Positions 8,859 through 34,104 of a stretch of 34,926 bases of DNA are shown here, one piece after another. The notes beneath the pieces were generated by a model. It did not search any database and was not told the origin of the DNA. It saw only the letters and a program-made list of their open reading frames with translations. The stretch comes from Dehalococcoidia bacterium. Lineage in GTDB: Bacteria > Chloroflexota > Dehalococcoidia > Dehalococcoidales > JAUXAP01. The position numbers and the translations under genes are program-made. Location: contig JAUXAP010000010.1 in assembly GCA_030619865.1 (NCBI GenBank), positions 1-34,926 of the forward strand, given 5' to 3'. The stretch's first letter is position 1, and each line of letters opens with the position of its first letter.

Positions 8859-8945
8859 AAAGCACTAAAAGCAGTAGCCGACTATGTTGCCCTTGATGTT
8901 GAGCACAGTGGAGTAGCAGCGGCGATTAAGAAGTTTTTGCTGTGA
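8859..8945 (+). pseudogene. C-terminal fragment of a Cof-type HAD phosphatase
   Basis: An open stretch ending in TGA reads KALKAVADYVALDVEHSG then VAAAIKKFLL. This matches the typical ending of Cof-type HAD hydrolases (VKAVADYV...GVA.AIEKFL). A TAA precedes it in frame and no upstream part of the domain was found, so only the tail remains. A 50-bp part of it is repeated at 10600-10649. Confidence 0.55.
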
Positions 8946-8962
8946 AATTGTGCATTTTGGCT
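8913..8962 (+). repeat. 50-bp dispersed repeat, copy 1
   Basis: This aligns with 10600-10649 with 7 differences in 50 bp, without gaps. It includes the HAD tail (VAAAIKKFLL, stop) and ends ATTTTGGCT. The two copies flank the RNA-binding gene cluster at 9007-10419. Confidence 0.75.
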
Positions 8963-9006
8963 GATTATTATATATCTTATTAGGCATATAGATTATGAGT
9001 AAAGGT

Positions 9007-9333
9007 TTAGCTTCTTCTCTGTCTTATATTTCTACTGTACCTGCCTCTTCTCTTGTGATTATAGGAGCCATTGCTACCATTGCCAGAAAGAGGGAGGGCC
9101 TGAATAATATCCATCGTCCTATGCCTAAGTGTTTTTCCATTGAGGGCGGTAATTGCAGCTTGACCTTCAGACACTGATGGCATTTCAACAAATCCGTATC
9201 CCCTAGATTGCCCGCTACCAATATACTTATCGTTCATAATGGTTACAGATAGCACTTCTCCGAAAGCCATGAATTCTCGTCGCAGTTCTTCCTCAGTCAC
9301 CTTGAGAGATAAGTTGCCCACATAGATATTCAT
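9007..9333 (-). CDS. RRM-type RNA-binding protein, paralogue with shortened basic tail
   Basis: This is a single RNA-recognition-motif protein of 108 residues. RNP2 is IYVGNL near residue 3 and RNP1 is RGYGFVEM near residue 46, followed by GQAAITALNGKTL. It resembles the cyanobacterial/chloroflexal Rbp proteins, which bind RNA and are often cold-induced. I choose ATG 9333 (MNIYVGNLS) because AAGGAT lies at suitable spacing; ATG 9342 is too close to it. Compared with the neighbour at 9463-9804 it has lost the Gly-rich tail and carries a basic one (NHKRRGRYSRNIRQRRS). The genes are tandem paralogues, with 129 bp between this start and the upstream stop. Confidence 0.9.
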   Translation of the reverse strand: MNIYVGNLSLKVTEEELRREFMAFGEVLSVTIMNDKYIGSGQSRGYGFVEMPSVSEGQAAITALNGKTLRHRTMDIIQALPLSGNGSNGSYNHKRRGRYSRNIRQRRS

Positions 9334-9462
9334 ATTGTCCATCCTTCTTTGGCGATTGGGTCAGGCTTGGCCTACTGTTTGTCACTAATGCCTAAACTAA
9401 TAGCCCTTCGGAATTATGAATATATTTTGTGTGTCTTAAGCAGAAATAAGTGAAGAGGGGGT

Positions 9463-9804
9463 TTAATATCCTCTCTGTCTTCCTCCCCCGAATCCACCAC
9501 CTCTACCACCACGGGAGCCACCACCCCTCCTGTCACCATACGACCCGCCGCCTCTGTTATCAGAGCGGGGACGAGCTGTATTAACAGTAAGTGTTCGTTC
9601 TCTCAGTGTTTTTCCGTTGAGCCCAGTAATTGCAGCTTGACCTTCAGACACTGTTGGCATTTCAACAAACGCGAATCCTTTTGGCCGTCCACTATACTTG
9701 TCCATTATGATATTTACAGATTCAACTTCCCCAAAAGCCAGGAATTCCTTGCGTAACTCCTCCTCAGTGACATCATAAGATAAGTTGCCCACATATATCT
9801 TCAT
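9463..9804 (-). CDS. RRM-type RNA-binding protein with Gly-rich C-terminus
   Basis: This 113-residue protein has one RRM (IYVGNLSYDVTEEEL; RPKGFAFVEMPTVSEG) and a glycine/arginine-rich tail from about residue 83 (RGGGSYGDRRGGGSRGG...). This is the classic layout of bacterial RNA-binding proteins of the Rbp type, thought to act as RNA chaperones in cold or other stress. The ATG follows AAAAGGAG with somewhat long spacing. It lies just after rpsU on the same strand. An rbp-rpsU pairing is also known in cyanobacteria, which supports a translation-related role. Confidence 0.92.
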   Translation of the reverse strand: MKIYVGNLSYDVTEEELRKEFLAFGEVESVNIIMDKYSGRPKGFAFVEMPTVSEGQAAITGLNGKTLRERTLTVNTARPRSDNRGGGSYGDRRGGGSRGGRGGGFGGGRQRGY

Positions 9805-9845
9805 ATTAATTAATGCTCCTTTTATTGGGTTATGGTTATTACTAG

Positions 9846-10599: not shown

Positions 10600-10649
10600 G
10601 TAGCGGCGGCGGTTAATAAGTTTTTGCTGTAAGATTGCCCATTTTGGCT
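10600..10649 (+). repeat. 50-bp dispersed repeat, copy 2
   Basis: This is the partner of 8913-8962 (43 of 50 identical). It keeps the HAD-like tail reading SVAAAVNKFLL then stop. Its right end overlaps the 19-bp sequence that recurs exactly at 19886-19904. Confidence 0.75.
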
Positions 10650-10663
10650 TTTTGTTACCTCAG
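10645..10663 (+). repeat. 19-bp direct repeat, left copy (flanks the lipid island)
   Basis: TGGCTTTTTGTTACCTCAG occurs here and again, exactly and in the same orientation, at 19886-19904. The bases on either side differ. The two copies enclose the GC-rich lipid gene island with nothing else. They could be integration or recombination end points. Confidence 0.7.
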
Positions 10664-10671
10664 ACAGACCA

Positions 10672-10830
10672 CTACGCCTTCAGAATCTCCTTGTGCTTTA
10701 AAGCGCATTCCAGTGACGGCTGCATCCTCATGTCGCGAAACTGGGTGATAGCGGAGTCCAGGTGTTGGAGCGCCTGTAGACGGTAAACCCAGCTCACAAG
10801 CCCCCTGGCCAGTCTTAGCTGCGTGAGTCT
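10672..10830 (-). pseudogene. C-terminal tail of a TPR-type protein
   Basis: On the minus strand an open stretch ending at 10672 reads RLQALQHLDSAITQFRDM then RMQPSLECALKHKEILKA and stop. This helical pattern (HL..A...F..M.M.P.LE.AL) is the usual ending of TPR-containing adenylate-cyclase or LuxR-type regulators. No upstream part was found; its frame runs into the end of the lipid-kinase fusion gene in another frame. I read it as a leftover of a large regulator removed when the neighbouring genes arrived. The fragment is short, so the family call is tentative. Confidence 0.4.
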
Positions 10831-12686
10831 TGATCTATACCTGAGAGCAGCCAGATCTTGCCGGACACAGATATGGATACCTCCCCACGTGCGACCATCG
10901 CACCACCGTCTACGTTGACAGCATAGGGACGAGCGTCCCGGGGCTGCACTCTTAGGCTGCTGACTGTCCGAATGATGCAGCCGTAACGCTCAGGTTCGGA
11001 AAGGATGGTACCCCTTCGTGCCGCCAGGATTTGCCGCAGTGTCTGCGGTAATCCCAGATAGCGCATTGCAATCACCCTGAACGAACCGCTTCCGAGAGAC
11101 AGGCCCCGTCCTAAAGGCAAATCGGCTCCCAAGTCACCGTTAACCACCAAGACAGTGCCCCAGGTTGCCGTAGCTGTCGTCTCTTCACCTAGGACCAAGG
11201 ACATTTCTGGTACACGGCCCAGTATGCGCTGGAGCTGCCATCGCCCCATGGCAAGGCCCAAGCCAACAAAGAAAGGGCCTAGGTCACCCAGAAGCGACCC
11301 CAGAACACCTTTGTAGACCTTGATGAAACGGCTCTCTGTGAAATGTGGCACCTCACCGAAAACGCCAAGTCCGCCAAAGCCCACAAGCTTGCGGCGCTGT
11401 ACTTCACCATCTGCATCGGTGGCCTCTACCGTCAGAATATCGGCAGGAACACAGTTTCCCGTTTCCAGAGCTGCAAGAATAGCCTCAACCGCGGCCTCGA
11501 GCCGGTTCGGGATACCAAGTACCTTGCCAATGAGATCCGCTGAACCCTTCCGCAAAAAGCCCAGCCGGAGATCCGAAGGCACCCTCCCAGCTAAGTGGCA
11601 CCCCTCCACGACCGCATTGAACGTCCCAGCACCGCCGGCTGACACAATGATACGGCTGCCTTCGGCCACTAGGCGTTGTGCGATCTCTCGTGCCTGGGCG
11701 TGACTGTCCGCTCTGTACACGCGAACCGGTCGTGATGTTCGCGATGAGAACGCTGGGCCTATGCGTTGCACCTTCCGCTGGTCCTGGATTGAACCGGACA
11801 TGGTAGTGGCAATCACTTCGATGGGAGCATGCTGCTGGGAATTGGGACCTTCGGCCGGGTTTTCACCCGCTAGGTGGTGGAGCACGCCAGTCGCGACGAT
11901 CTCCACGACTTCCCTCAATGATAATTGATTAGCGCGAATCGTCGTGAGTGGGATGCCGCGCTGTTTATGAAGCAAAGTGCAGACTCGACCGTAACCCCGG
12001 CCCAACTCGCCGAGGAAGGCTGCTGTCTCGTGCACCTGAACAGGTCTCCCACGGGCGCGGATACGTCCCATGGCCACCTCAGGATCAATGTCAAGTAAAA
12101 AGATGAGGTCTGGGGGTGAGAAGCGGCTCAACCCTAGCAAGTTTAGCAACGGCAACTGCCATGCTCGAAGCACGTAGTGCGCCAATCTGCGCAGAGGAAT
12201 GCGGTCCTCGCCACCCAGGTAGCATATCACGCGCCAGAGTTCTTCGTCATCGTCTGATAAGTCTTCCCTGTAAAAACGAGCGCAGGCCCAACCGGCAACA
12301 TTGATGAGTGGTTGACCGTCAGTAAGAATGACATCAGGAGGATCATGGTCGGTCACATATTGACAAATATGCGCCAGTTCGGCGAGCTCGACAAACTTGA
12401 AGTTCTTGTAGAGCCGCTGCCAACGCAAACCTTTGGCGAAACGCCCGAGGAACTTCGCGGAGCGCGAGAGGGGAACACCGGCGAGCTCACTTATCGACTC
12501 GCCCGGTCCACCGTGCAGTATTTGATCTCCAATACCTACAACTCGGACACGATTGGCCAATGCCCTCAGCGTGCCAATAAAGGTGGAGCTCTTCCCGGAT
12601 CCATCCACGCCCACAACTGTGGCCACAATAGGTTTCTTCCTCACAATACTATTCTTTGCCCTGACTAAGCTCGGAGGAGTCATCAT
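10815..12686 (-). CDS. thymidylate kinase-like / diacylglycerol kinase-like fusion protein
   Basis: This 623-residue protein joins two nucleotide-binding domains. Residues 1-270 are a P-loop kinase of the thymidylate-kinase type: GVDGSGKSS at 26-34, DVILTDGQPLINVAG at about 118-132, and RIRARGRPVQVHE like the TMK lid. Residues 320-615 are a diacylglycerol/sphingosine-kinase (LCB5/YegS) domain, with IIVSAGGAGTFNAVVEG around 347 and LGFLRKGSADLIGKVLGIP near 375. The usual GGDGT reads GGAGT, and PxGTxND reads RKGSADL, so the lipid kinase site is altered and activity is not certain. It heads the lipid island on the minus strand. It probably phosphorylates or binds a lipid or polyol; which one is unknown. 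Confidence 0.8.
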   Translation of the reverse strand: MMTPPSLVRAKNSIVRKKPIVATVVGVDGSGKSSTFIGTLRALANRVRVVGIGDQILHGGPGESISELAGVPLSRSAKFLGRFAKGLRWQRLYKNFKFVELAELAHICQYVTDHDPPDVILTDGQPLINVAGWACARFYREDLSDDDEELWRVICYLGGEDRIPLRRLAHYVLRAWQLPLLNLLGLSRFSPPDLIFLLDIDPEVAMGRIRARGRPVQVHETAAFLGELGRGYGRVCTLLHKQRGIPLTTIRANQLSLREVVEIVATGVLHHLAGENPAEGPNSQQHAPIEVIATTMSGSIQDQRKVQRIGPAFSSRTSRPVRVYRADSHAQAREIAQRLVAEGSRIIVSAGGAGTFNAVVEGCHLAGRVPSDLRLGFLRKGSADLIGKVLGIPNRLEAAVEAILAALETGNCVPADILTVEATDADGEVQRRKLVGFGGLGVFGEVPHFTESRFIKVYKGVLGSLLGDLGPFFVGLGLAMGRWQLQRILGRVPEMSLVLGEETTATATWGTVLVVNGDLGADLPLGRGLSLGSGSFRVIAMRYLGLPQTLRQILAARRGTILSEPERYGCIIRTVSSLRVQPRDARPYAVNVDGGAMVARGEVSISVSGKIWLLSGIDQDSRS

Positions 12687-14667: not shown

Positions 14668-14900
14668 ACGTCACTCACTCTGTCTCCCGATTTTAGAGAT
14701 AATGGCGTTTCTCTTGCCAGCTTCTATCCTGAAAGCTTACACACCTCGTATACCGTTACACCATCTGACTAGTGGTCAAACAATCTCTTTTGCTTCGGAG
14801 CTACCAGAGATGATGGTTGACGTGGCTATCTTTCTGAGATATACTTAGATATACTTAGCGCCACCAGTGGCAGAAGGACAATTATAGGCAATACGGTGGT

Positions 14901-15247
14901 GGAGGTGAAGGGTGAAGAGGCAAAAGTGGCGGGTAATCATCGGGGTTGTGGCTCTCCTACTGGCAGTCACCCTACTGACGGGGGTCGCCTCGCCCCCCCC
15001 TGTTGAGGTAGAAGTTCCATTAATGGACTTTCCGTGGTGGCTCCCTTTGGCATTCTTCGGGCTGCCGGTACTAGTGATTGGTTTCATTATTCTCATAGTG
15101 TGGATATTATTACGGGTTTTCCGTAAGGAATCACCAGAGCAAAAGCTAGCGGGGGAAGAGTGGCAAGCCAAGATTGGGGAACAACAAGATCGAAAAGACA
15201 AGATTCGAGAACACCGTCAGTCGCAGAAGGACGACCATAGCCAATAA
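14901..15247 (+). repeat. tandem gene-sized repeat, copy 1
   Basis: The first 110 bp or so (GGAGGTG ribosome site to the codons after the poly-C tract) and the last 100 bp are nearly the same as in copy 2 (15254-15595); the middle part differs. The offset between matching starts is 353 bp. Copy 1 has eight C residues at 14993-15000. Confidence 0.85.
14912..15247 (+). CDS. small membrane protein with signal peptide and charged tail
   Basis: A GTG start at 14912 follows GGAGGTG. The 111-residue product has an N-terminal signal-like helix (WRVIIGVVALLLAVTLLTGV), a short outer segment (SPPPVEVEVPLMDFPWW), a second helix (PLAFFGLPVLVIGFIILIVW) and a hydrophilic, strongly charged tail of about 45 residues (ESPEQKLAGEEWQAKIGEQQ onward) that may form a coiled coil. 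No family is recognised. The SPPP codons fall on an eight-C run. It stands just upstream of a near-duplicate and the lipid ligase fusion. Confidence 0.7.
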   Translation: MKRQKWRVIIGVVALLLAVTLLTGVASPPPVEVEVPLMDFPWWLPLAFFGLPVLVIGFIILIVWILLRVFRKESPEQKLAGEEWQAKIGEQQDRKDKIREHRQSQKDDHSQ

Positions 15248-15264
15248 TGAGCTGGAGGTGAAGG

Positions 15265-15595
15265 GTGAAGAGGCAAAAGTGGCGGGCAACCATCAGGGTT
15301 GTGGTTCTACTATTAGCAGTGACCCTACTGACGGGGGTCGCCTCGCCCCCCCCCTGTTGAGGTAGAAGTTCCATTAATGGACTTTGGGGCTGAGATTGGT
15401 AAAATTCTTTTATTTTTCTCGGTACTACTCGCACTACTGATTGGTCTCATTTTTCTCATATGGTGGATAATAAGAAGGTTTTTACGTAAGGAACCACCAG
15501 AGCAAAAGCGAGCGCGGGAAGAGTCGCAAGCCAAGATTGGGGAACAAAAGGAGCGAGACATTGGAGAAAAGAGGAGACAAGACCAACAGCGGTGA
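15265..15595 (+). pseudogene. second copy of the small membrane gene, frameshifted at a poly-C tract
   Basis: The GTG start at 15265 and ribosome site match those of copy 1. At 15346-15354 this copy has nine C residues against eight, which shifts the frame into TGT TGA at 15360, giving only 31 residues. With one C fewer, the frame would run on into the open stretch at 15377-15595, which has a membrane helix (ILLFFSVLLALLIGLIFLIW) and a charged tail like copy 1. The shift could be a decayed duplicate, a phase-variable switch or a sequencing error in a homopolymer. Confidence 0.75.
15346..15354 (+). repeat. C9 homopolymer that decides the reading frame
   Basis: Nine C residues here against eight at the same place in the neighbouring copy (14993-15000). 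Loss of one C restores a full-length frame of 110 codons in copy 2. Homopolymers of this size inside coding sequences slip easily. Confidence 0.8.
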
Positions 15596-15669: not shown

Positions 15670-18177
15670 ATGAACACCTTGTGTCAGTTACTCCAGGAGG
15701 CGGCAGCTGAGTTTGGCTCCAAGACCGCTCTATTGATGCAGCGCGGTTACCGTATAGAGCGCTGGAGCTATCAGTATCTGTGGGAATTCAGCGAGCGCCT
15801 TATAACCTACCTGCGAGGCAAAGGCCTCCAGCATGGGGACCGCGTGCTTCTGTGGGCTCCTAATATACCTGAGTGGGTAGGTCTCTACTTCGGCTGCTTG
15901 CGGGCTGGCATCATCTTGGTACCTCTGGATATACTGTGCACACCCGATTTCGTGGTCAAAATCAAAGACAGCACCAACGCTCGCTGCTTATTCGTTTCTC
16001 GAACTACCAAGGGACAGGTGTCGGAAGTCGGTATCCCCGTGTTGTATCTCGAAGACCTGCCGCAAGAACTGGAAGGAGTGAGCTCGGATTCATCCATCTC
16101 CCTCCCCATCGAGGAGGACATTGCCGAGATCATGTTCACCTCTGGGACAACAGGAGAACCCAAGGGGGTAATCCTCACCCACCGCAATATTGTGTCTAAT
16201 GTCTTGTCAGCCACGCAGATGGTACCCGTTGGTCCAAGTAGCCGCGTCCTCTCTCTCTTACCCTTGAGCCATATGCTAGAGCAGACAGCTGGGTTATTAG
16301 GCTTTCTCAAGTCAGGTGCCACCATAGTCTATCCTGCCAGCCGTCAGCCAGGGGTGATCTTCCGGACTCTGAGAGAGCACCGCATCACCAATATTGTCTT
16401 GGTGCCTCGGGTACTCCAGCTCTTCTGGGGTGCTATTGAGCGGGAGGTGAAAAAGCAGGGAAGGGAGCAAGTGTGGCAGCGCCTGCTACAGATATCGGCT
16501 CGCCTGCCCACAAAGTTGCGGAGACTCCTTTTTCGACCAGTACACCAGCAACTTGGAGGTTGCCTCCAGTTTCTCATATGCGGTGGGGCTTACTTGGACC
16601 CAGAGATGGCTCGCCGCTGGGAACTACTGGGTATCCCTATTCTTCAAGGATACGGTACTACCGAGGCAGCCCCTAGCGTGACTGTAAACTCCTTGAAGAA
16701 GCGCCGACTAGATTCCGTAGGGAAGATACTCCCGGGTCAGGACATGAAGATAGCCTCAGATGGGGAGGTCCTCATTCGTGGTGCTAATATCACACAGGGT
16801 TACTGGCAAAATACCGAGGCTACAGCTGCGGCGTTCGATGGTGATTGGTACAGGACTGGGGATCTGGGCTACGTGGACGACAAGGGATATCTGTACCTTA
16901 GAGGCCGTAAGAAGGACATGATCGTTCTAGCCAGCGGGATGAACGTTTATGCCCAAGATGTAGAGAAAGCCTTAAAGATCTGCCCTGGAGTAGAGGATGC
17001 ATGTGTGCTGGGCGTACCGAAGGGGGAAAGTGGGGTACAGGTACACGCTGTACTGCTGCTGAAAGAAGAGAGGACCACCTCTCAGGATATTGTCGACCAC
17101 GTGAATAAGGGCTTGGCAGATCACCAGCGAGTTCAGGCGGTTACTGTCTGGCCCTTCCCTGACTTTCCTCGCACCCATACCCTTAAGGTTAAGAAGCAGG
17201 AGGTCCTAGATTATGTGCTGAAAGGTATCTTGGCTGAAGGACCTGCTGAAATGGCCCCCGCTGTGGGTAAGGTCAGTGAGGTGCCCATACTTCATCGCCT
17301 ACTGGCCAGCTTGGCGGGTGTGCCAATGCAGAGCATCCATCCCTCTATGACCCTGGGAGAAGACCTAAACCTAGATTCCTTGGGCCGTGTGGAGTTGCTG
17401 GCCGCGGTAGAGTCAGAGTTAGACACTTATGTGGATGAGTCCTACGTCTCGACTGGGACCACAGTGGAAGAACTGGAAGCTGTGGTAGCCTCAGCGGGTG
17501 AGGTTTCAAAAGAGCAAGTGCAGCTGGATTGGCCACTCAGCAGGCTTGTACGTCTTGGCCGCGCCATCCTCCAGTTATTCTTAGTCTTTCCCCTCCTACG
17601 GACGGTGGCTCCCCTCAAAGTAGAAGGCCGGGAAAACCTGAAGGACTTGCGGCCCCCGGTACTTTTTGCCGTCAACCATCAAAGCCACTTGGATACTCCT
17701 ACGGTACTGGCCGCTCTACCTATAACCTGGCGTAGCCGAACGGCGGTGGCGGCCGCTGCTGACTTCTGGTTTGCCGCCGGTCGTAGCAGAAAACTCCTGG
17801 CCACATTTGTGTTCAACGCATTCCCTTTCTCACGCACCGACTCCATCCGCCCCACCTTAAAGCACTGCTGTCGCTTGCTGGATAGAGGCTGGTCTGTTCT
17901 GATCTATCCTGAGGGGACCCGCTCCGAGACCGGGCAGATGGGGTCATTTAAGTCAGGGGCAGGACTCATGGCTGTTGAACTAGGTATGCCGGTGGTACCG
18001 ATCCACATACGCGGTACCCACGAAGTACTTCCGAAAGGTCAGACTATGCCGCGTCGCGGGCGTGTGCAAGTGCGTATTGGGAAGGCACTCCGGTTCCCGC
18101 TCCAGACCTCATACATCGAGGCTACCAAGACTCTTGAAGAGGCTGTAAAGGTTCTGGAAGTGCAGAAGATCCAGTAA
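15670..18177 (+). CDS. acyl-AMP ligase / acyl carrier protein / PlsC acyltransferase fusion
   Basis: This 835-residue protein has three domains. Residues 1-515 are an AMP-forming acyl ligase, with FTSGTTGEPKGVILTHRN at 156-173, GYGTTEA at about 327 and YRTGDLGYVDDKG near 394. Residues 535-610 are an acyl carrier domain, with LGEDLNLDSLGRVELLA where Ser570 should carry phosphopantetheine. Residues 640-830 are a PlsC-type acyltransferase, with AVNHQSHLD (His670, Asp675), AFPFSRTD, IYPEGTRS and VVPIHI. The single chain could activate a fatty acid, load it on its own ACP and transfer it to a phosphate- or polyol-containing acceptor. It recalls Aas but with an inserted ACP. The next gene starts 12 bp later, so the three downstream steps form an operon. 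Confidence 0.92.
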   Translation: MNTLCQLLQEAAAEFGSKTALLMQRGYRIERWSYQYLWEFSERLITYLRGKGLQHGDRVLLWAPNIPEWVGLYFGCLRAGIILVPLDILCTPDFVVKIKDSTNARCLFVSRTTKGQVSEVGIPVLYLEDLPQELEGVSSDSSISLPIEEDIAEIMFTSGTTGEPKGVILTHRNIVSNVLSATQMVPVGPSSRVLSLLPLSHMLEQTAGLLGFLKSGATIVYPASRQPGVIFRTLREHRITNIVLVPRVLQLFWGAIEREVKKQGREQVWQRLLQISARLPTKLRRLLFRPVHQQLGGCLQFLICGGAYLDPEMARRWELLGIPILQGYGTTEAAPSVTVNSLKKRRLDSVGKILPGQDMKIASDGEVLIRGANITQGYWQNTEATAAAFDGDWYRTGDLGYVDDKGYLYLRGRKKDMIVLASGMNVYAQDVEKALKICPGVEDACVLGVPKGESGVQVHAVLLLKEERTTSQDIVDHVNKGLADHQRVQAVTVWPFPDFPRTHTLKVKKQEVLDYVLKGILAEGPAEMAPAVGKVSEVPILHRLLASLAGVPMQSIHPSMTLGEDLNLDSLGRVELLAAVESELDTYVDESYVSTGTTVEELEAVVASAGEVSKEQVQLDWPLSRLVRLGRAILQLFLVFPLLRTVAPLKVEGRENLKDLRPPVLFAVNHQSHLDTPTVLAALPITWRSRTAVAAAADFWFAAGRSRKLLATFVFNAFPFSRTDSIRPTLKHCCRLLDRGWSVLIYPEGTRSETGQMGSFKSGAGLMAVELGMPVVPIHIRGTHEVLPKGQTMPRRGRVQVRIGKALRFPLQTSYIEATKTLEEAVKVLEVQKIQ

Positions 18178-18189
18178 GGAGGCATTTGA

Positions 18190-18798
18190 GTGGGTATCTA
18201 CAGCATCAAACCCAAATTTCAGCAGACATTAAGGGTCGTAGAGCGGCCACTGGTACGGTGGCGTGTCCATCCGGACGTGCTCACCCTGTCCGCCCTGGGA
18301 TTGAGCTTCTTAGGTGGCTTTGCCCTCTTCGCTTCCCAGTGGACTCCCTGGACTCTGCTCGCTGTGCCTTTCATAGCCTTATTGCGCATCTCACTTAATG
18401 CCTTGGATGGCATGGTAGCCAAGGACCTGGGAGTTGCTCGACCCTGGGGAGAGGTTCTCAACGAGCTATGCGATCGCTTAGCGGATGTTGCCTTCTTCGT
18501 TGGGGTAGCCTTGATTCCAGGTGTAAACATACCCCTTGGCATAAGCGTACTGGTGCTGATGGTTATCACTAGCTACGTGGGCATTCTTTCCAAGGCGGCT
18601 GGAGGAGCCAGAGAGTTCGGTGGCCTCATGGGCAAGGCCGACCGGATGATATTGCTGGCACTGGCGTCGGTCTTGGCTCTGATATTGCCCAATCTGCCTG
18701 TGTTCAATGGCTTCTTGGTCGTAGTTCTGGTCGGCCTTGCTGCCACCCTATTCCAGCGCCTGCGGAGGACATATGTGGCTCTCAAACCCCATCGCTGA
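18190..18798 (+). CDS. CDP-alcohol phosphatidyltransferase-type membrane protein (YnbA-like)
   Basis: The GTG start at 18190 is preceded by AAGGAGG. The 202-residue protein has about six hydrophobic helices and the family site as LNALDGMVAKDLG followed by GEVLNELCDRLAD. In the normal site (D1xxD2GxxAR...GxxxD3xxxD4) the first and third aspartates are Asn here and the Arg is Lys. The NALDG...LNEL pattern is one I associate with the E. coli YnbA branch, whose substrate is unknown. Members swap CMP for an alcohol head group on a CDP-activated lipid or polyol. It overlaps the CdsA-type gene by 26 bp, which supports a paired function as in ynbA-ynbB. Confidence 0.85.
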   Translation: MGIYSIKPKFQQTLRVVERPLVRWRVHPDVLTLSALGLSFLGGFALFASQWTPWTLLAVPFIALLRISLNALDGMVAKDLGVARPWGEVLNELCDRLADVAFFVGVALIPGVNIPLGISVLVLMVITSYVGILSKAAGGAREFGGLMGKADRMILLALASVLALILPNLPVFNGFLVVVLVGLAATLFQRLRRTYVALKPHR

Positions 18799-19696
18799 CC
18801 CCCTCTTCTGGTCATTCATCAAAGTCGTTGGAATTGTCCTCGGCGTAGCACTTGTGGTACTCCTAGTACTGGAGCGGCGCCACCTGAGGGAGCTTCACCG
18901 GCGGGAACTGTTCAGGCGTCTGTTCACATGGGCTTGCATCGCTCCCCTTTATAGTGTGGCTATCCTTAGTGGGCGTATTCCCGTTCTACTCATTACCTGT
19001 TTGATGGTCTTCCAAGGAATCAGGGAATATGCAACGTTAGTGGGCTTGCCGCGGACCTATCGCTGGGTATTGATTGGTATGGGGGTGCTGGCGCCTCCTG
19101 CAGCCCTTCACTCCCCTTTAGCCTTCTATGTGTTGCCTGCATTATTGTTGTTGTTAGCAACCCTCCAACCACTGCTGATCCGCGACAGAAGGGGAGGGGT
19201 GAGGCATTTGGCCTTCGCTGTGTTTGGATGGAGCTATGTGGCCTGGCTCCTGGGACACATTATGCTCATATATCTCTATGTGGATCAGGGCCCTAGGCTT
19301 TTGCTGGCCTTAGGATGGTCCGTAGCACTCAGCGATGTGGCAGCGTTCGCAATCGGGAAACCTCTAGGGAGGCATAAGCTCGCTCCTAGACTCAGCCCTA
19401 ACAAGACTTGGGAAGGTGTGGTAGGAAACTTTCTAGGGGCGTACCTTGGGATGGGTATCATGTACGTTACTCTGCAACTGAACCTCCGTGGTTATCTCGC
19501 TTGGACCTTTCCGGCTGTCATTGCTGCAGGTGCTTTATGGGGGGATTTACTCGAGTCGGCCATAAAGCGTGAGTTTGAGGTGAAGGACGCCGGCGGGTGG
19601 CTTCCCGGATTTGGGGGGCTTCTGGACAGAATAGACAGCTTGCTCCTTGTCTTGCCGTTGGCATTCTATACCCTATCACTGACACGTCTCCTCTAG
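18773..19696 (+). CDS. CdsA-type phosphatidate cytidylyltransferase (YnbB-like)
   Basis: I place the start at ATG 18773, since GGAGG at 18764-18768 lies just before it; an in-frame upstream start at 18737 has no ribosome site. The 307-residue protein has about eight membrane spans and the CdsA hallmark near the C-terminus: LSPNKTWEGVVGNFLGA and SAIKREFEVKDAGGWLPGF then GGLLDRIDS. The His before GG in the usual signature is Phe. The enzyme would use CTP to make a CDP-lipid in the membrane, the substrate for the neighbouring phosphotransferase. A chromosome like this would normally have its own cdsA elsewhere, so this copy is likely specialised. Confidence 0.88.
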   Translation: MWLSNPIADPLFWSFIKVVGIVLGVALVVLLVLERRHLRELHRRELFRRLFTWACIAPLYSVAILSGRIPVLLITCLMVFQGIREYATLVGLPRTYRWVLIGMGVLAPPAALHSPLAFYVLPALLLLLATLQPLLIRDRRGGVRHLAFAVFGWSYVAWLLGHIMLIYLYVDQGPRLLLALGWSVALSDVAAFAIGKPLGRHKLAPRLSPNKTWEGVVGNFLGAYLGMGIMYVTLQLNLRGYLAWTFPAVIAAGALWGDLLESAIKREFEVKDAGGWLPGFGGLLDRIDSLLLVLPLAFYTLSLTRLL

Positions 19697-19927: not shown

Positions 19928-20863
19928 TCATGATGAACCCTGCTCAATCAAAACATCCAAATTCCTTGGCATCACATCCAACTGGTCGAATAGGCAGACT
20001 CTCTTTAGTTTTTCTACGGTCGCTTGCGGGAATTGATTGGGGGAGGTTCCTTTTAATATAAGTTCAGTCTCTTTTTCCGTGAAGCTTTCCTGCCCTTCTT
20101 CAAACCAGCGAAAGAATCTCTTATTCACTGGGCAAGCTAACTGACAGTACATACAACCGATTAGGCAATTATGCCAGCAAAGCTCAATCCAGTCAGGAAA
20201 TTCATCCGGTCTTTCATTATGAAAGGTAAGGCATTTCTCTGCTTGAATCAAGAAGCGATGAGGAATAATTGCGCCAGGCGGGCATTTGTTAGCACAAGCA
20301 CTGCATTTGTTGCACTGTTCCATCATCTGCAGCCCAAACCAGTTATCTTCAGCAGCGGGAAGGTCTGAAAGGAAAGCCTTGAGCCTGTAGAAACTGCCCA
20401 TGCCTTCAATATAGGTAATGTTATTCTTGCCGTATTTGGACAGTCCGCTATGAACCGCCAGCAGTTTTACCGGCAACACAGCTGGAAAAAGGTTGAATCC
20501 CTTTGGCTTCAGTATGTCAGAAAGTATGTTTTCGACTATTTCATCTGTCTTGTGGGAATAGGTTGGTGGTACTGTTAAATGATATGGCCTTCCCTTGAAG
20601 TTGAAATTCACCTTTTGCTGGGGTTGTGGCGCGGAGGTTATCACAAGAGACTTCGCATCAGGAAAATGCTCAGGGATCCCGAACTCAAATCCAGCAAGAT
20701 ACTCTTGGTACAGAGCTTCGTCAAAAACTCCTTGCTTGCGATGATGCTCAAACTCCTCTTTCAGATCAGCAAGATGTTGGATAGGGACAATCTTTCCCCT
20801 GTATCCTTTTTGTTCAAGTCTTGAGTAGACTTGTTTCGTAATTTGTGAAATACCCGAGGTCAT
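19928..20863 (-). CDS. double 4Fe-4S cluster protein, distant relative of epoxyqueuosine reductase
   Basis: The protein is 311 residues from ATG 20863 (MTSGISQITKQ), chosen because GGGAGAG lies before it at normal spacing; the upstream ATG at 20878 adds five residues. Two cluster motifs, CNKCSACANKCPPGA and CLIGCMYCQLACP, each provide four cysteines for a 4Fe-4S centre, in the arrangement found in QueG and reductive dehalogenase-type proteins. SGLSKYGKNNITYIEGMGSF resembles the GxxGKN segment of QueG. It lacks the HEAT-like C-terminus of true QueG, so I do not name it so. A cobalamin- or flavin-linked redox role is plausible; the substrate is not known. Confidence 0.82.
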   Translation of the reverse strand: MTSGISQITKQVYSRLEQKGYRGKIVPIQHLADLKEEFEHHRKQGVFDEALYQEYLAGFEFGIPEHFPDAKSLVITSAPQPQQKVNFNFKGRPYHLTVPPTYSHKTDEIVENILSDILKPKGFNLFPAVLPVKLLAVHSGLSKYGKNNITYIEGMGSFYRLKAFLSDLPAAEDNWFGLQMMEQCNKCSACANKCPPGAIIPHRFLIQAEKCLTFHNERPDEFPDWIELCWHNCLIGCMYCQLACPVNKRFFRWFEEGQESFTEKETELILKGTSPNQFPQATVEKLKRVCLFDQLDVMPRNLDVLIEQGSS

Positions 20864-20980
20864 ATTTCTCTCTCCCATCTCCTCATAGCCTCATATCTTC
20901 AACTGAAACTACCTGTAAAGTAAGTAACTCGTCATTGTATAGTAATATCGTCAATAGAGCAATAGTATTATTACTTGACG

Positions 20981-21146: not shown

Positions 21147-21174
21147 TTGATTAGTGACGACTGGTGCCCTTTTT
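21129..21174 (+). terminator. intrinsic terminator or attenuator ahead of the beta-helix gene
   Basis: GGGCAC pairs with GTGCCC at 21164-21169, with a second helix TCGT/ACGA inside, followed at once by TTTTT. It lies between the promoter at 21028 and the gene at 21230, so it would stop most transcripts before the gene unless prevented. Confidence 0.55.
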
Positions 21175-21229
21175 GATTGGAATGCCACGAGCCAAAGCAA
21201 TATTAGGAAAGGCGGAGAGGAGGTGTGAC

Positions 21230-23275
21230 ATGAAATTGATTAGAAAAGTGGTTCCAGTTTTGCTTACTATAGCTATGGCTGGCGTGGTGCTGTTAGGCGG
21301 AGGCCCGGCTGTGGCTGATGTCAGCCAGCCTAGCGTTAGCCTGAGCGACGACACCATTAGTGCCAATGCCTCATACGTCATCACTTTCGACATCAACGAG
21401 GAGTTACTTGTTGATGGCACTGACTGGATTGAAATCCGCTTCCCTGAGGGCACCTACATCTATGATTTCGCGGTTGCCGACGCTGACATCACGGTTCAGA
21501 CTGAGAGTACCTTTGGCAACGATAACGCCGCAACTAACGTTGGGGACGATACTGTCTTCGTTGAGGACCCGGACGATGTCTGGACAGCGACTATTGACCT
21601 CGTTGCTCTGAATCTCGCCGTTTCCGAAAACTCTGATGTCAGGGTAGAGTTCGTGGATGAGACCATCATCGAGAATCCGGCTACCCCCGGCATCTATACG
21701 CTGGAGGTACGCACCTCTGACGAGGACGACTGGGTACCTTCAGAGGAGTACGAGATAGAGGTCCCAGATGTTGACCCACTTCCGGGCATAGTTAAAGTCT
21801 ATAACCCCTCCATGATACTAATGGCCATCTTCACCGGAGACAGCGCGATTACAGACGCTATAGCTTACGCTGGGGCAGGTTGGACCATAAAGGTTTTTAC
21901 GGGCACCTACACTGAGAATGTGGATATCGGCTCGTCTAAAACTGGTTTGACCATCCAGTCAGAGAGTGGATACAATAACACCACGGTTGTGGCATCTAGC
22001 TCAAGCGACCATGTCTTTGATGTAACCGCTGACAATGTAACCATAGACGGTTTCACCATCTATGGTGCAACTGACAATGAAGAAGCAGGGATAATCCTCA
22101 GCGGGGTGAGTGGCTGTACCATAGAGAACAACCGTTGTGGCTATGATAGCGACCATAAGAACTACTACGGCGTCTACCTGTCTTCTTCGAGTAACAACAC
22201 GCTCACGAGCAACACCGCTAACTCAAATACCAGCTACGGCATCCGACTGTCTTCTTCGAGCAACAACACGCTCACGAACAACACCGCTAACTCGAACAGC
22301 CACGGCATCCACATGCGGTCTTCGAGCAACAACAACACACTCGCGAACAACACCTGCAACTTAAATACCAGCCACGGCATCTACCTGTATGAGGCGAGCG
22401 CCAACACGCTCATGAACAACACCTGCAACTCAAATACCAACGCCGGCATCCACCTGTATAATTCGAATGACAACACTATCTACCTCAACAACTTCAGCAA
22501 CAGCACCGCCAATGTTTATTCAACTGGTTCAACCAATACCTGGAAATCGCCCACCACGCTGTGCTACTTCTATAGCTCGAGCTATAAGAATTACTTAGGT
22601 AACTACTATAGCGACCGCAGCGGAAATGAGGGTGCAGGGGGCATTGGAGATACTCACTATACCACTGACGGTGCTGGTGACAATTATCCGCTCTGGCAAA
22701 CCTCCGACCACTACACCGTGCAGGCGTGGTGGCTCCACAGTGACGACAAGATGTATGAGGCAGACACGAGCAAGGGGCCTGGAACCGTCACCATAGCCGC
22801 CAGTGGCTCCAACATCTGGATTGCGGATGAAGCAGCGGCAACAGATATTACCTTTTCCAATGACACCTGGACGGGGCAGGTGGTCTTCAGCTCGGCACCG
22901 GGAACCGATAAAATTAAGGTTGAGATAGGCTCTTCCACTGGGGCAGGCAATTTCACTGCTGGTGGACCCGAGGATACGATAGGGGATGGTAGTACCACTA
23001 CTCTGACCTTCACCACCAATGCCAGCTCTGTCACCGTGCCCAATACAAACTATCTTGCCCTCAGGATAAGCAACCTAGATACTTTGAGCAGTTATAATGT
23101 AGTTACCGGCGGGGCATGGAGCTATACCTCCAATCCCAATACCGGTGCCCCGGACTACCCCGTCCCCGAGTTAGCCACCATAATCCTTCTGGGAGGCGGG
23201 CTGGTTGTCATAGGTGTTTACTCTATTTTGCAGAGGCGGAGGAAGAGCCTTCACCTCAGCTTAACCCCATTGTAA
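21230..23275 (+). CDS. secreted right-handed beta-helix (NosD-type) surface protein
   Basis: The ATG at 21230 follows GAGAGGAGGTG; upstream in-frame starts lie in the terminator. The 681-residue protein has a signal peptide (MKLIRKVVPVLLTIAMAGVV, cleavage likely after AVAD), a beta-sandwich-like acidic region (about 25-190), then a parallel beta-helix with repeats of the form NNTLTNNTANSN...GIxLxSSS around residues 320-430. A second sandwich-like part follows. The end is a sorting-type anchor: PVPELATIILLGGGL, a hydrophobic helix and QRRRK. Such proteins sit on the cell surface and may bind or cut polysaccharide; no catalytic residues are evident. Confidence 0.85.
   Translation: MKLIRKVVPVLLTIAMAGVVLLGGGPAVADVSQPSVSLSDDTISANASYVITFDINEELLVDGTDWIEIRFPEGTYIYDFAVADADITVQTESTFGNDNAATNVGDDTVFVEDPDDVWTATIDLVALNLAVSENSDVRVEFVDETIIENPATPGIYTLEVRTSDEDDWVPSEEYEIEVPDVDPLPGIVKVYNPSMILMAIFTGDSAITDAIAYAGAGWTIKVFTGTYTENVDIGSSKTGLTIQSESGYNNTTVVASSSSDHVFDVTADNVTIDGFTIYGATDNEEAGIILSGVSGCTIENNRCGYDSDHKNYYGVYLSSSSNNTLTSNTANSNTSYGIRLSSSSNNTLTNNTANSNSHGIHMRSSSNNNTLANNTCNLNTSHGIYLYEASANTLMNNTCNSNTNAGIHLYNSNDNTIYLNNFSNSTANVYSTGSTNTWKSPTTLCYFYSSSYKNYLGNYYSDRSGNEGAGGIGDTHYTTDGAGDNYPLWQTSDHYTVQAWWLHSDDKMYEADTSKGPGTVTIAASGSNIWIADEAAATDITFSNDTWTGQVVFSSAPGTDKIKVEIGSSTGAGNFTAGGPEDTIGDGSTTTLTFTTNASSVTVPNTNYLALRISNLDTLSSYNVVTGGAWSYTSNPNTGAPDYPVPELATIILLGGGLVVIGVYSILQRRRKSLHLSLTPL
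22178..22470 (+). repeat. tandem coding repeats of the beta-helix
   Basis: About four units of roughly 66-69 bp share AACACGCTCACGA...AACACC and the CACGGCATC or TACGGCATC turn. They encode successive rungs of the helix. The first two units are nearly identical in DNA sequence, so unit gain or loss by recombination is possible. Confidence 0.75.
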
Positions 23276-32705: not shown

Positions 32706-33251
32706 ATGAAAATGGGGTTGCTTAGTCGTTTCTTCAGTGGCTATACTCTGGTTATTGGCTCTCATATAAGAAGGCAACTTGAATTTTTAAAGGAGAAAGC
32801 CCCGCCCGACTTTAAGCATAGACAGCTGGATGATTTGGGTTGTGGTGATGGCAAGATAACCTTATTGTTAAAAGATATTTTATTGCCAACAAGGCTCCGA
32901 GGCTTTGATGTTAATCCTAATCTTGTTAAACGAGCCAGAGCTAAAGGAATTGAAGCTGAGGTCAATAATCTAGAGGATGATATGCCTAGCGGGGAATTGG
33001 GCGTAATGTGGGGGGTTTTACACCATCTAAAAGATAGGGAGGGTTGTCTTAGAAGGCTAAAGGAAAACTACAGCTTGATTTTTATCAGAGAACCGGTAAA
33101 GACTGGCCTTGCTAGTGGGTTAGAGCTGGGACACCCTTTAAGAAAAGAAGAGCTTGAATCTCTGATTCGAGAGTATCTAGCTGGTTCGCAAGTCTTCTAC
33201 TGTGGCAATAGTGTCATCCTATTTTATATATCGCCAAATGGAGGGATATGA
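32706..33251 (+). CDS. SAM-dependent methyltransferase-like protein, short
   Basis: This 181-residue protein has motif I LDDLGCGDGKITLLL, motif II LRGFDVNPN and the post-motif GVMWGVLHHLKDREGC, so it binds SAM or derives from an enzyme that did. The C-terminal part is shorter than usual and ends HPLRKEELESLIREYL and SVILFYISPNGG. It starts with an ATG five bases after the stop of the first methyltransferase. The two are not close paralogues. The target is unknown. Confidence 0.8.
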   Translation: MKMGLLSRFFSGYTLVIGSHIRRQLEFLKEKAPPDFKHRQLDDLGCGDGKITLLLKDILLPTRLRGFDVNPNLVKRARAKGIEAEVNNLEDDMPSGELGVMWGVLHHLKDREGCLRRLKENYSLIFIREPVKTGLASGLELGHPLRKEELESLIREYLAGSQVFYCGNSVILFYISPNGGI

Positions 33252-33258
33252 TAGTCGA

Positions 33259-34104
33259 ATGGACAAAGGGAAGGAAAATATGGTTGAGATAAGCGATGTT
33301 GACTTAGCCCTGCGGGAAGAAGCCCGCTACTTGGGTCAGCAGCTTTTTGGGAACAGATTAGAGAGGATTGATAACTTCACCGATAGGCTTTTGAATATTA
33401 GCACTAGAGCTCGAGGCAAAGACTTTCTTCTCGTTCATAACTCCGGTGGCTGGGGGAGCGCTGGTATGGACCATTGTTTGCAATGGGAAAGAAGCCTAGT
33501 GACTGGGGTGAGCGCCACTATAGAAAAGCTCGGGTATACCTCTTTACTAATTCATTACCTTCGTACTGGCAAGGGTTGGCGAGAAAATATACGGGATATA
33601 AAAGAGCAATTCCAATTCTTTGCCTTTAAGGCAAGGCTAATGGCAGCCGAATTAAGATTTCTAACCCAGCACAACAACCCTCTTAAGGTGCTACTGATAG
33701 GGGTAAGTCAGGGGGCTGCCTTTAGTAATGCCGTAATGCGAGACTTAACCGACCTTGGTCCCGTTTACAGCATTGAACTGGGCATGCCCTTTAACCACAG
33801 GTCTCGGCGGCTAGTTACTGAGAAAGCATTGGTGTTAAATAGTAACGGATTGATGCCCGACGCTACAGTGCAGGGGAACCTAGCCGGTGCTTTACAGGCT
33901 TACTTGGTCGGTCCCTTTAAATGGCTTATGTATCAGTTACGAAGAAGACCGGTAAGATTTGCCCAATGCATTAATGCCCCCGGGCATGACTATGATTGGG
34001 GACACCCTGAGGTTAGACAGCAGATTGAGGATTTCCTTAAGCTTAATTTCGGCACTAAGAGCAATGTGGAGGTGGTCAGTCATGAGGCAAGAGAGATTCA
34101 CTGA
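33259..34104 (+). CDS. alpha/beta hydrolase-like protein
   Basis: The start is uncertain: ATG 33259 ([11 protein letters not shown]) follows GGAGGG at long spacing, while ATG 33280 follows GGGAAGG closely. The product is 281 or 274 residues. [15 protein letters not shown] matches the GxSxG nucleophile elbow of alpha/beta hydrolases, and [11 protein letters not shown] near the end offers the catalytic His. An early [13 protein letters not shown] may form the oxyanion part. It could be an esterase or thioesterase for the product of the two methyltransferases; that is inference. Its end overlaps the ClpB-type gene by 23 bp. Confidence 0.68.

Follow-up and report, generated by a model that had tools for sequence, protein, structure and literature searches.

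The open reading frame at 10815-12686 joins a thymidylate kinase (TMK)-like P-loop domain to a diacylglycerol (DAG) kinase-fold domain with altered active-site motifs. The best explanation is that it is the fused version of a two-part module conserved in Chloroflexota, and not a broken gene, since distant relatives keep both parts as adjoining, overlapping genes. Judged from sequence, the pair is probably an undescribed enzyme module for modifying a membrane lipid. Well-studied lipid kinases depend on the Asp of GGDGT; the clade described here has lost this residue throughout, has gained other invariants and is tied to a second kinase fold. Such a clade would show a lipid kinase becoming a substrate-binding or regulatory partner, and it hints at a lipid modification not described so far, in bacteria that have received little study. 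Moreover, the alternation of fused and split forms, with overlapping genes, makes the joint working of both halves testable. A previous sequence-only reading named no characterised enzyme with this fusion and, in agreement, we found no report of the architecture among open-licence papers; the family nevertheless extends beyond a single fusion and includes a two-gene form.

Architecture of the fused gene

The window, that is, the whole stretch of 34,926 nucleotides analysed, lies on contig C27 of an 823-kb genome bin (G000) of a Dehalococcoidia bacterium, 58% complete. The features of the fused gene are the following; counts refer to the copies described below.

10815-12686, minus strand: fused protein of 623 aa, TMK-like P-loop domain plus altered DAG-kinase-fold domain (ORF calls, Pfam, homologues)
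11871-12632, minus strand: TMK-like P-loop kinase domain, residues 19-272 (partial PF02223 match, E 8e-5; hhalign)
12585-12611, minus strand: P-loop GVDGSGKSS, residues 26-34 (G26, D28, G29, G31, K32 and S33 invariant in 9/9)
12312-12326, minus strand: L-T-D-G-Q, residues 121-125, at the position of the TMK DR motif (D123-G124 invariant in 9/9)
12027-12095, minus strand: LID-like region L198..E220, LDxxPxxAxxRxxxRGxxxxxHE (partly matched by Pfam and NCBIfam TMK models)
10836-11825, minus strand: DAG-kinase-fold domain with both lobes, residues 288-617 (PF00781, E 3e-11; hhalign)
11622-11636, minus strand: GGAGT for GGDGT, residues 351-355 (Ala in 4/4 fused copies, Gly in 5/5 unfused, Asp in 10/10 control DAG kinases)
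11532-11552, minus strand: RKGSADL for PxGTxND, residues 379-385 (R379 invariant in 9/9)
10902-10913, minus strand: VDGG for xDGE, residues 592-595, with loss of the catalytic/Mg-binding Glu (alignment with copies and controls)

The frame runs through its 623 codons without an internal stop, which confirms the proposed fusion of both domains in one frame. The motifs GVDGSGKSS, GGAGT and RKGSADL lie where the sequence-only reading had placed them, and their alterations are real, but two more changes had escaped it (VDGG at 592-595 and DG at 123-124). The LCB5/YegS-type domain is also present, although it starts near residue 288 and not at about 320. Neither a frameshift or missed stop between the halves nor an intact GGDGT in close homologues was found.

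When each half was searched against Pfam, DAGK_cat (PF00781) matched residues 291-405 above its cut-off (43.5 bits against 23.6), while the Thymidylate_kin (PF02223) match was confined to residues 191-227 and fell below it (22.8 bits against 27), as did the score of TIGR00041 (22.1 against 83). Profile comparison confirms both folds at the sequence level: the TMK-like family of nine members aligned with TMKs (hhalign 96.5%, E 7.5e-10) and the DAG-kinase-fold half with canonical DAG kinases (98%, E 2.4e-13). The top PDB match was DgkB (E 5e-5), and AlphaFold models, both full-length and limited to the N-terminal half, reached a pLDDT of only 37-38.

Fused and unfused forms in Chloroflexota

Short exact peptides were searched for in 84,980 species genomes, a scan that detects near relatives only and that recovered three more fused copies from metagenome assemblies of Dehalococcoidia/Chloroflexi: L003 and L004, 88% identical, and L005, 65%. 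GGAGT and RKGSADL occur in all three, and VDGG also in L003 and L005, L004 being interrupted by a scaffold gap ahead of that position. The same fusion junction is thus present in four assemblies. Across the fused protein dN/dS is 0.15-0.36 (NG86), the DAG-kinase half being about as constrained as the N-terminal half, which shows that the gene is under purifying selection. Phage and plasmid searches (tblastn) gave no match, viral contigs gave none, and PADLOC and PHROGs yielded nothing beyond weak partial matches.

More distant relatives were sought within a Chloroflexota sample, many of whose genomes come in fragments, with several contigs breaking off close to the gene; other phyla were scanned for near-identical peptides alone. 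A profile of the N-terminal domain found one relative among 393 genomes of the class, G047, where the gene starting with the TMK-like domain is directly preceded, on its upstream side, by a DAG-kinase-like gene (GGGGGT). With G047 included, the profile gave four strong matches among 390 genomes of the phylum (E 1e-36 to 1e-43), all from family f117, and the order was the same in 4/4: a DAG-kinase-like gene (GGGGGT, LDED) followed by the TMK-like domain. In four of the five unfused pairs the genes share an overlap of 4 nt (GTGA or TTGA); the DAG-kinase-like partners score 38-51 bits with PF00781 (cut-off 23.6), and two unfused relatives pass the PF02223 cut-off. Further, weaker matches among the 390 genomes cover the LID region alone; most of their frames have the length of a TMK, and they probably represent ordinary TMKs. 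Besides the window, the two parts are represented by three fused copies plus five genomes with the unfused pair.

In the unfused pairs the P-loop protein carries a methyltransferase; among the f117 genomes, a methyltransferase-like part follows the TMK-like domain in the three whose contigs continue. One split-form methyltransferase scored 17.4 bits against Methyltransf_20 (best of 2000 shuffles, 4.5), and no Pfam match was found for the split-form methyltransferase at E 1. In L064, L065, L066 and L037 the methyltransferase fused to the TMK-like domain resembles Methyltransf_20 but goes unrecognised by every Pfam model.

The low synonymous divergence of the fused gene indicates recent horizontal spread. 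Among the window, L003 and L004 its dS is 0.18-0.25, against 0.92 for the ligase gene described below, 1.00 for TMK and 0.78 for NAD kinase, a baseline of three genes each taken from one pair of the same genomes, which are metagenome bins. DNA identity of ~91% spans from about codon 11-17 to ~17 bp beyond the stop and then ends abruptly. The simplest reading of these sequences would be a recent transfer of the single gene among Dehalococcoidia. GC content was dropped as a sign of transfer, neighbouring coding genes being at 0.54-0.56 against 0.57.

The P-loop half

In canonical TMKs the DR motif serves the phosphate of dTMP. It is absent here, with DG at 123-124 in 9/9 copies, whereas the canonical TMKs of the sister genomes (L014, L015) have CDRY and thus retain DRY. 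The P-loop follows the GxxxxGK[ST] pattern of thymidylate kinase and is intact in 9/9 copies. D199, R208, R212, G213, H219 and E220 of the LID-like region are invariant in 9/9, and conservation over the nine members further includes D54, L92-Y93, K97, PD193, LD199 and Y232. Given the DG at the DR position and a long insertion ahead of the LID, the acceptor is probably not dTMP.

Separate TMKs were found in G739 and G740 (E 1e-51 and 1e-53), so we rejected the idea that the fused gene is the sole TMK for these two sister genomes; none was seen in G000 (58% complete) or G741. Canonical DAG kinases are likewise present separately in G000, G740 and G741, and hence the fusion is an extra gene in those genomes. 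A tree of the N-terminal half with TMKs had long branches and was uninformative.

The DAG-kinase-like half

The Asp of GGDGT is gone from 9/9 DAG-kinase-like partners, and the Glu of DGE from every partner with that region assembled: VDGG stands in the three fused copies whose 3' end is assembled, and LDED in the unfused ones. Ten control DAG kinases from related genomes have GGDGT in 10/10 and DGE in 9/10, L022 having EGE. The Gly-rich loops are retained, and G351, G352, G354, T355, A358, E361, R379 and S382 are conserved over the nine members, with H329 present in all eight copies that cover it; residue 361 is Glu in the family and Asn in the controls. In the tree the altered halves form one clade, separate from seven controls (support 100/99). 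Since they share the new invariants H329, E361 and R379, the site looks re-specialised rather than decayed, and its conservation despite the loss of catalytic residues would therefore indicate a new role.

In sphingosine kinase 1 (SK1) the corresponding motif contains Asp81, whose mutant is inactive, and Mg binding is predicted for Asp341/Glu343 (PMC4466670). In an NAD kinase the Asp of GGDG acts as proton acceptor (PMC8553519). By analogy, catalysis of the DgkB type by the C-terminal half is unlikely.

Genomic neighbours

Three genes of the window bear on a possible lipid link.

15670-18177, plus strand: acyl-AMP ligase, acyl carrier and acyltransferase, 835 aa, recurrent neighbour (Pfam)
18190-18798, plus strand: CDP-alcohol phosphatidyltransferase, YnbA-like, neighbour in the window genome alone (family models, Ynb comparison)
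18737-19696, plus strand: CDP-DAG synthase-like, over its length closer to YnbB than to E. coli CdsA (family models, Ynb comparison)

The first of these genes occurs as one strong copy in each of G000, G739 and G740, near the fused gene but in different arrangements (divergent at ~3 kb, convergent at 37 bp, on the same strand at 22 bp), and was not found in G741. Three of the four ynbABCD-like functions lie near the fused gene in the window, and the acyltransferase fusion alone in L003/L004. No close YnbA-like homologue was found in G739, G740 or f117, which weakens membership in a ynbABCD operon and leaves the lipid link drawn from the neighbours as suggestive only. The f117 neighbourhoods of the split pair contain no lipid genes.

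The surroundings also contain several repeats. Upstream of the ligase gene, at window 14865-15556, there are two interleaved direct repeats of 136-141 nt (82-88% identical, spacing ~353-363) together with a 39-nt exact repeat in the same gap. Diverged direct repeats of 152 and 119 nt (70-75%, spacing ~475) lie at 9050-9807, and a 58-nt repeat (83%) occupies 8913-8970 and 10600-10657, the latter shortly beyond the 3' end of the fused gene. A NosD/parallel beta-helix protein at 21164-23275 has a 69-bp internal tandem repeat at 22167-22480. Other genes noted are a 316-aa 4Fe-4S protein (19928-20878, minus strand), which QueG and reductive dehalogenase models matched weakly, below their cut-offs; a 300-aa ORF without a Pfam match (33202-34104, plus strand); and, near the fused gene in L003 (5644-6819, minus strand), a CetZ/FtsZ-like protein of the tubulin superfamily, judged from its sequence.

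Proposed mechanism and alternatives

We propose, with about even confidence, that the P-loop half transfers phosphate and that the DAG-kinase half is the binding partner for a lipid or lipid phosphate, which it presents or through which it regulates the reaction. The N-terminal half would be a TMK-fold P-loop kinase with an intact ATP-binding loop and an altered acceptor site, probably phosphorylating something besides dTMP. The C-terminal half, most likely no longer a lipid kinase by the mechanism of DgkB or sphingosine kinase, would bind the lipid (or lipid phosphate) and present it to the P-loop half or regulate this half. The sequence-only reading had suggested the same division of work; the intact P-loop and the loss of the GGDGT Asp and the DGE Glu fit it, although it remains a reading of sequences. 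Three points are inferred: the identity of the active half, a lipid or lipid head group as the acceptor, and the direction in which the pathway runs. Going further, we tentatively propose, with some doubt about its full extent, an undescribed two-component kinase: a TMK-fold P-loop enzyme would carry out the chemistry, and a re-specialised DAG-kinase fold, itself non-catalytic, would hold the lipid for it. Such a kinase would exist as a fusion, as an overlapping gene pair or together with a methyltransferase, and would produce a modified membrane lipid so far undescribed in Chloroflexota.

Against the main reading stands that the lipid link consists of the fold plus a neighbour absent from G741, and that the f117 neighbours are not lipid genes. 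The DAG-kinase-like half may instead be a sensor or membrane anchor: on binding its ligand (a lipid, nucleotide or phosphate) it would regulate a P-loop half whose substrate is soluble, for example a nucleotide or sugar phosphate. The loss of the catalytic acids with retention of the Gly-rich loops agrees with such a role, as do the split-form neighbourhoods; however, the acyltransferase/acyl-ligase neighbour of three fused genomes and the distant resemblance of the split-form methyltransferase to Methyltransf_20 of phospholipid operons speak against it, and we regard it as rather improbable.

The new invariant acidic and basic residues could also mean novel catalysis by the DAG-kinase half. 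Both halves would then be active kinases, the catalytic acid having moved to E361 or H329 with R379 holding the phosphates, and would phosphorylate one lipid or head group twice in succession. H329, E361 and R379 are indeed invariant across lineages only ~25% identical despite the lost Asp/Glu, and dN/dS is equally low in both halves; but both residues important in SK1 and NAD kinase (PMC4466670, PMC8553519) are missing from every assembled copy, and two of the sites carry different replacements depending on the lineage (A or G; DGG or DED). Two phosphorylations by the pair, as the earlier reading also contemplated, are therefore an unlikely outcome, even with an altered half that has invariant residues of its own.

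Losing the Arg of the TMK DR motif could leave the P-loop half merely hydrolysing or binding ATP. A module without kinase activity in either half, in which the P-loop part would be an NTP-driven switch and the role structural or regulatory, would be consistent with the replacement of this Arg by Gly in all copies, but the LID residues, the P-loop and the TMK-fold aspartates are retained and make it very improbable. Finally, although all named copies come from metagenome-assembled genomes, with L003 beginning near a contig end and L004 running into a gap, we rejected a misassembly, frameshift or decaying pseudogene as having practically no probability, given the shared junction, the selective constraint on both halves (dN/dS well below 1), the fixation of the altered motifs in one clade and the unfused counterparts in five genomes.

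Comparison with known systems

The fused protein can be compared with four known systems. Thymidylate kinase (PF02223, TIGR00041; 4tmk) has the P-loop, the LID region and the order of elements in common with the N-terminal half, which differs in DG for DR and is roughly 60 aa longer.

YnbC-type systems offer a second comparison. The Methyltransf_20 domain (PF12147), C-terminal in E. coli YnbC, is encoded in phospholipid operons beside CDP-alcohol phosphotransferase, CDP-DAG synthase and acyltransferase, and is collinear with the split-form methyltransferase (hhalign 88.7%, E 2.5e-6), a signal that needed the alignment of six relatives, YnbC alone not being significant. Unlike these systems, the window protein has no methyltransferase.

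Bacterial ceramide kinase CpgB of Caulobacter is likewise a lipid kinase of the DAG-kinase family (PMC10331486), but it keeps GGDG and no fusion to a P-loop kinase has been described for it. The soluble DAG kinase/YegS/sphingosine kinase family as a whole (PF00781; DgkB 2qv7, human AGK 7cgp, SphK1) shares with the C-terminal half the two-lobed fold and the Gly-rich GGxGT loop. The C-terminal half departs from this family in lacking the GGDGT Asp and the DGE Glu, in RKGSADL for PxGTxND, in Glu for the second Asn of NExxNG, and in having a P-loop kinase as its fusion partner or paired protein.
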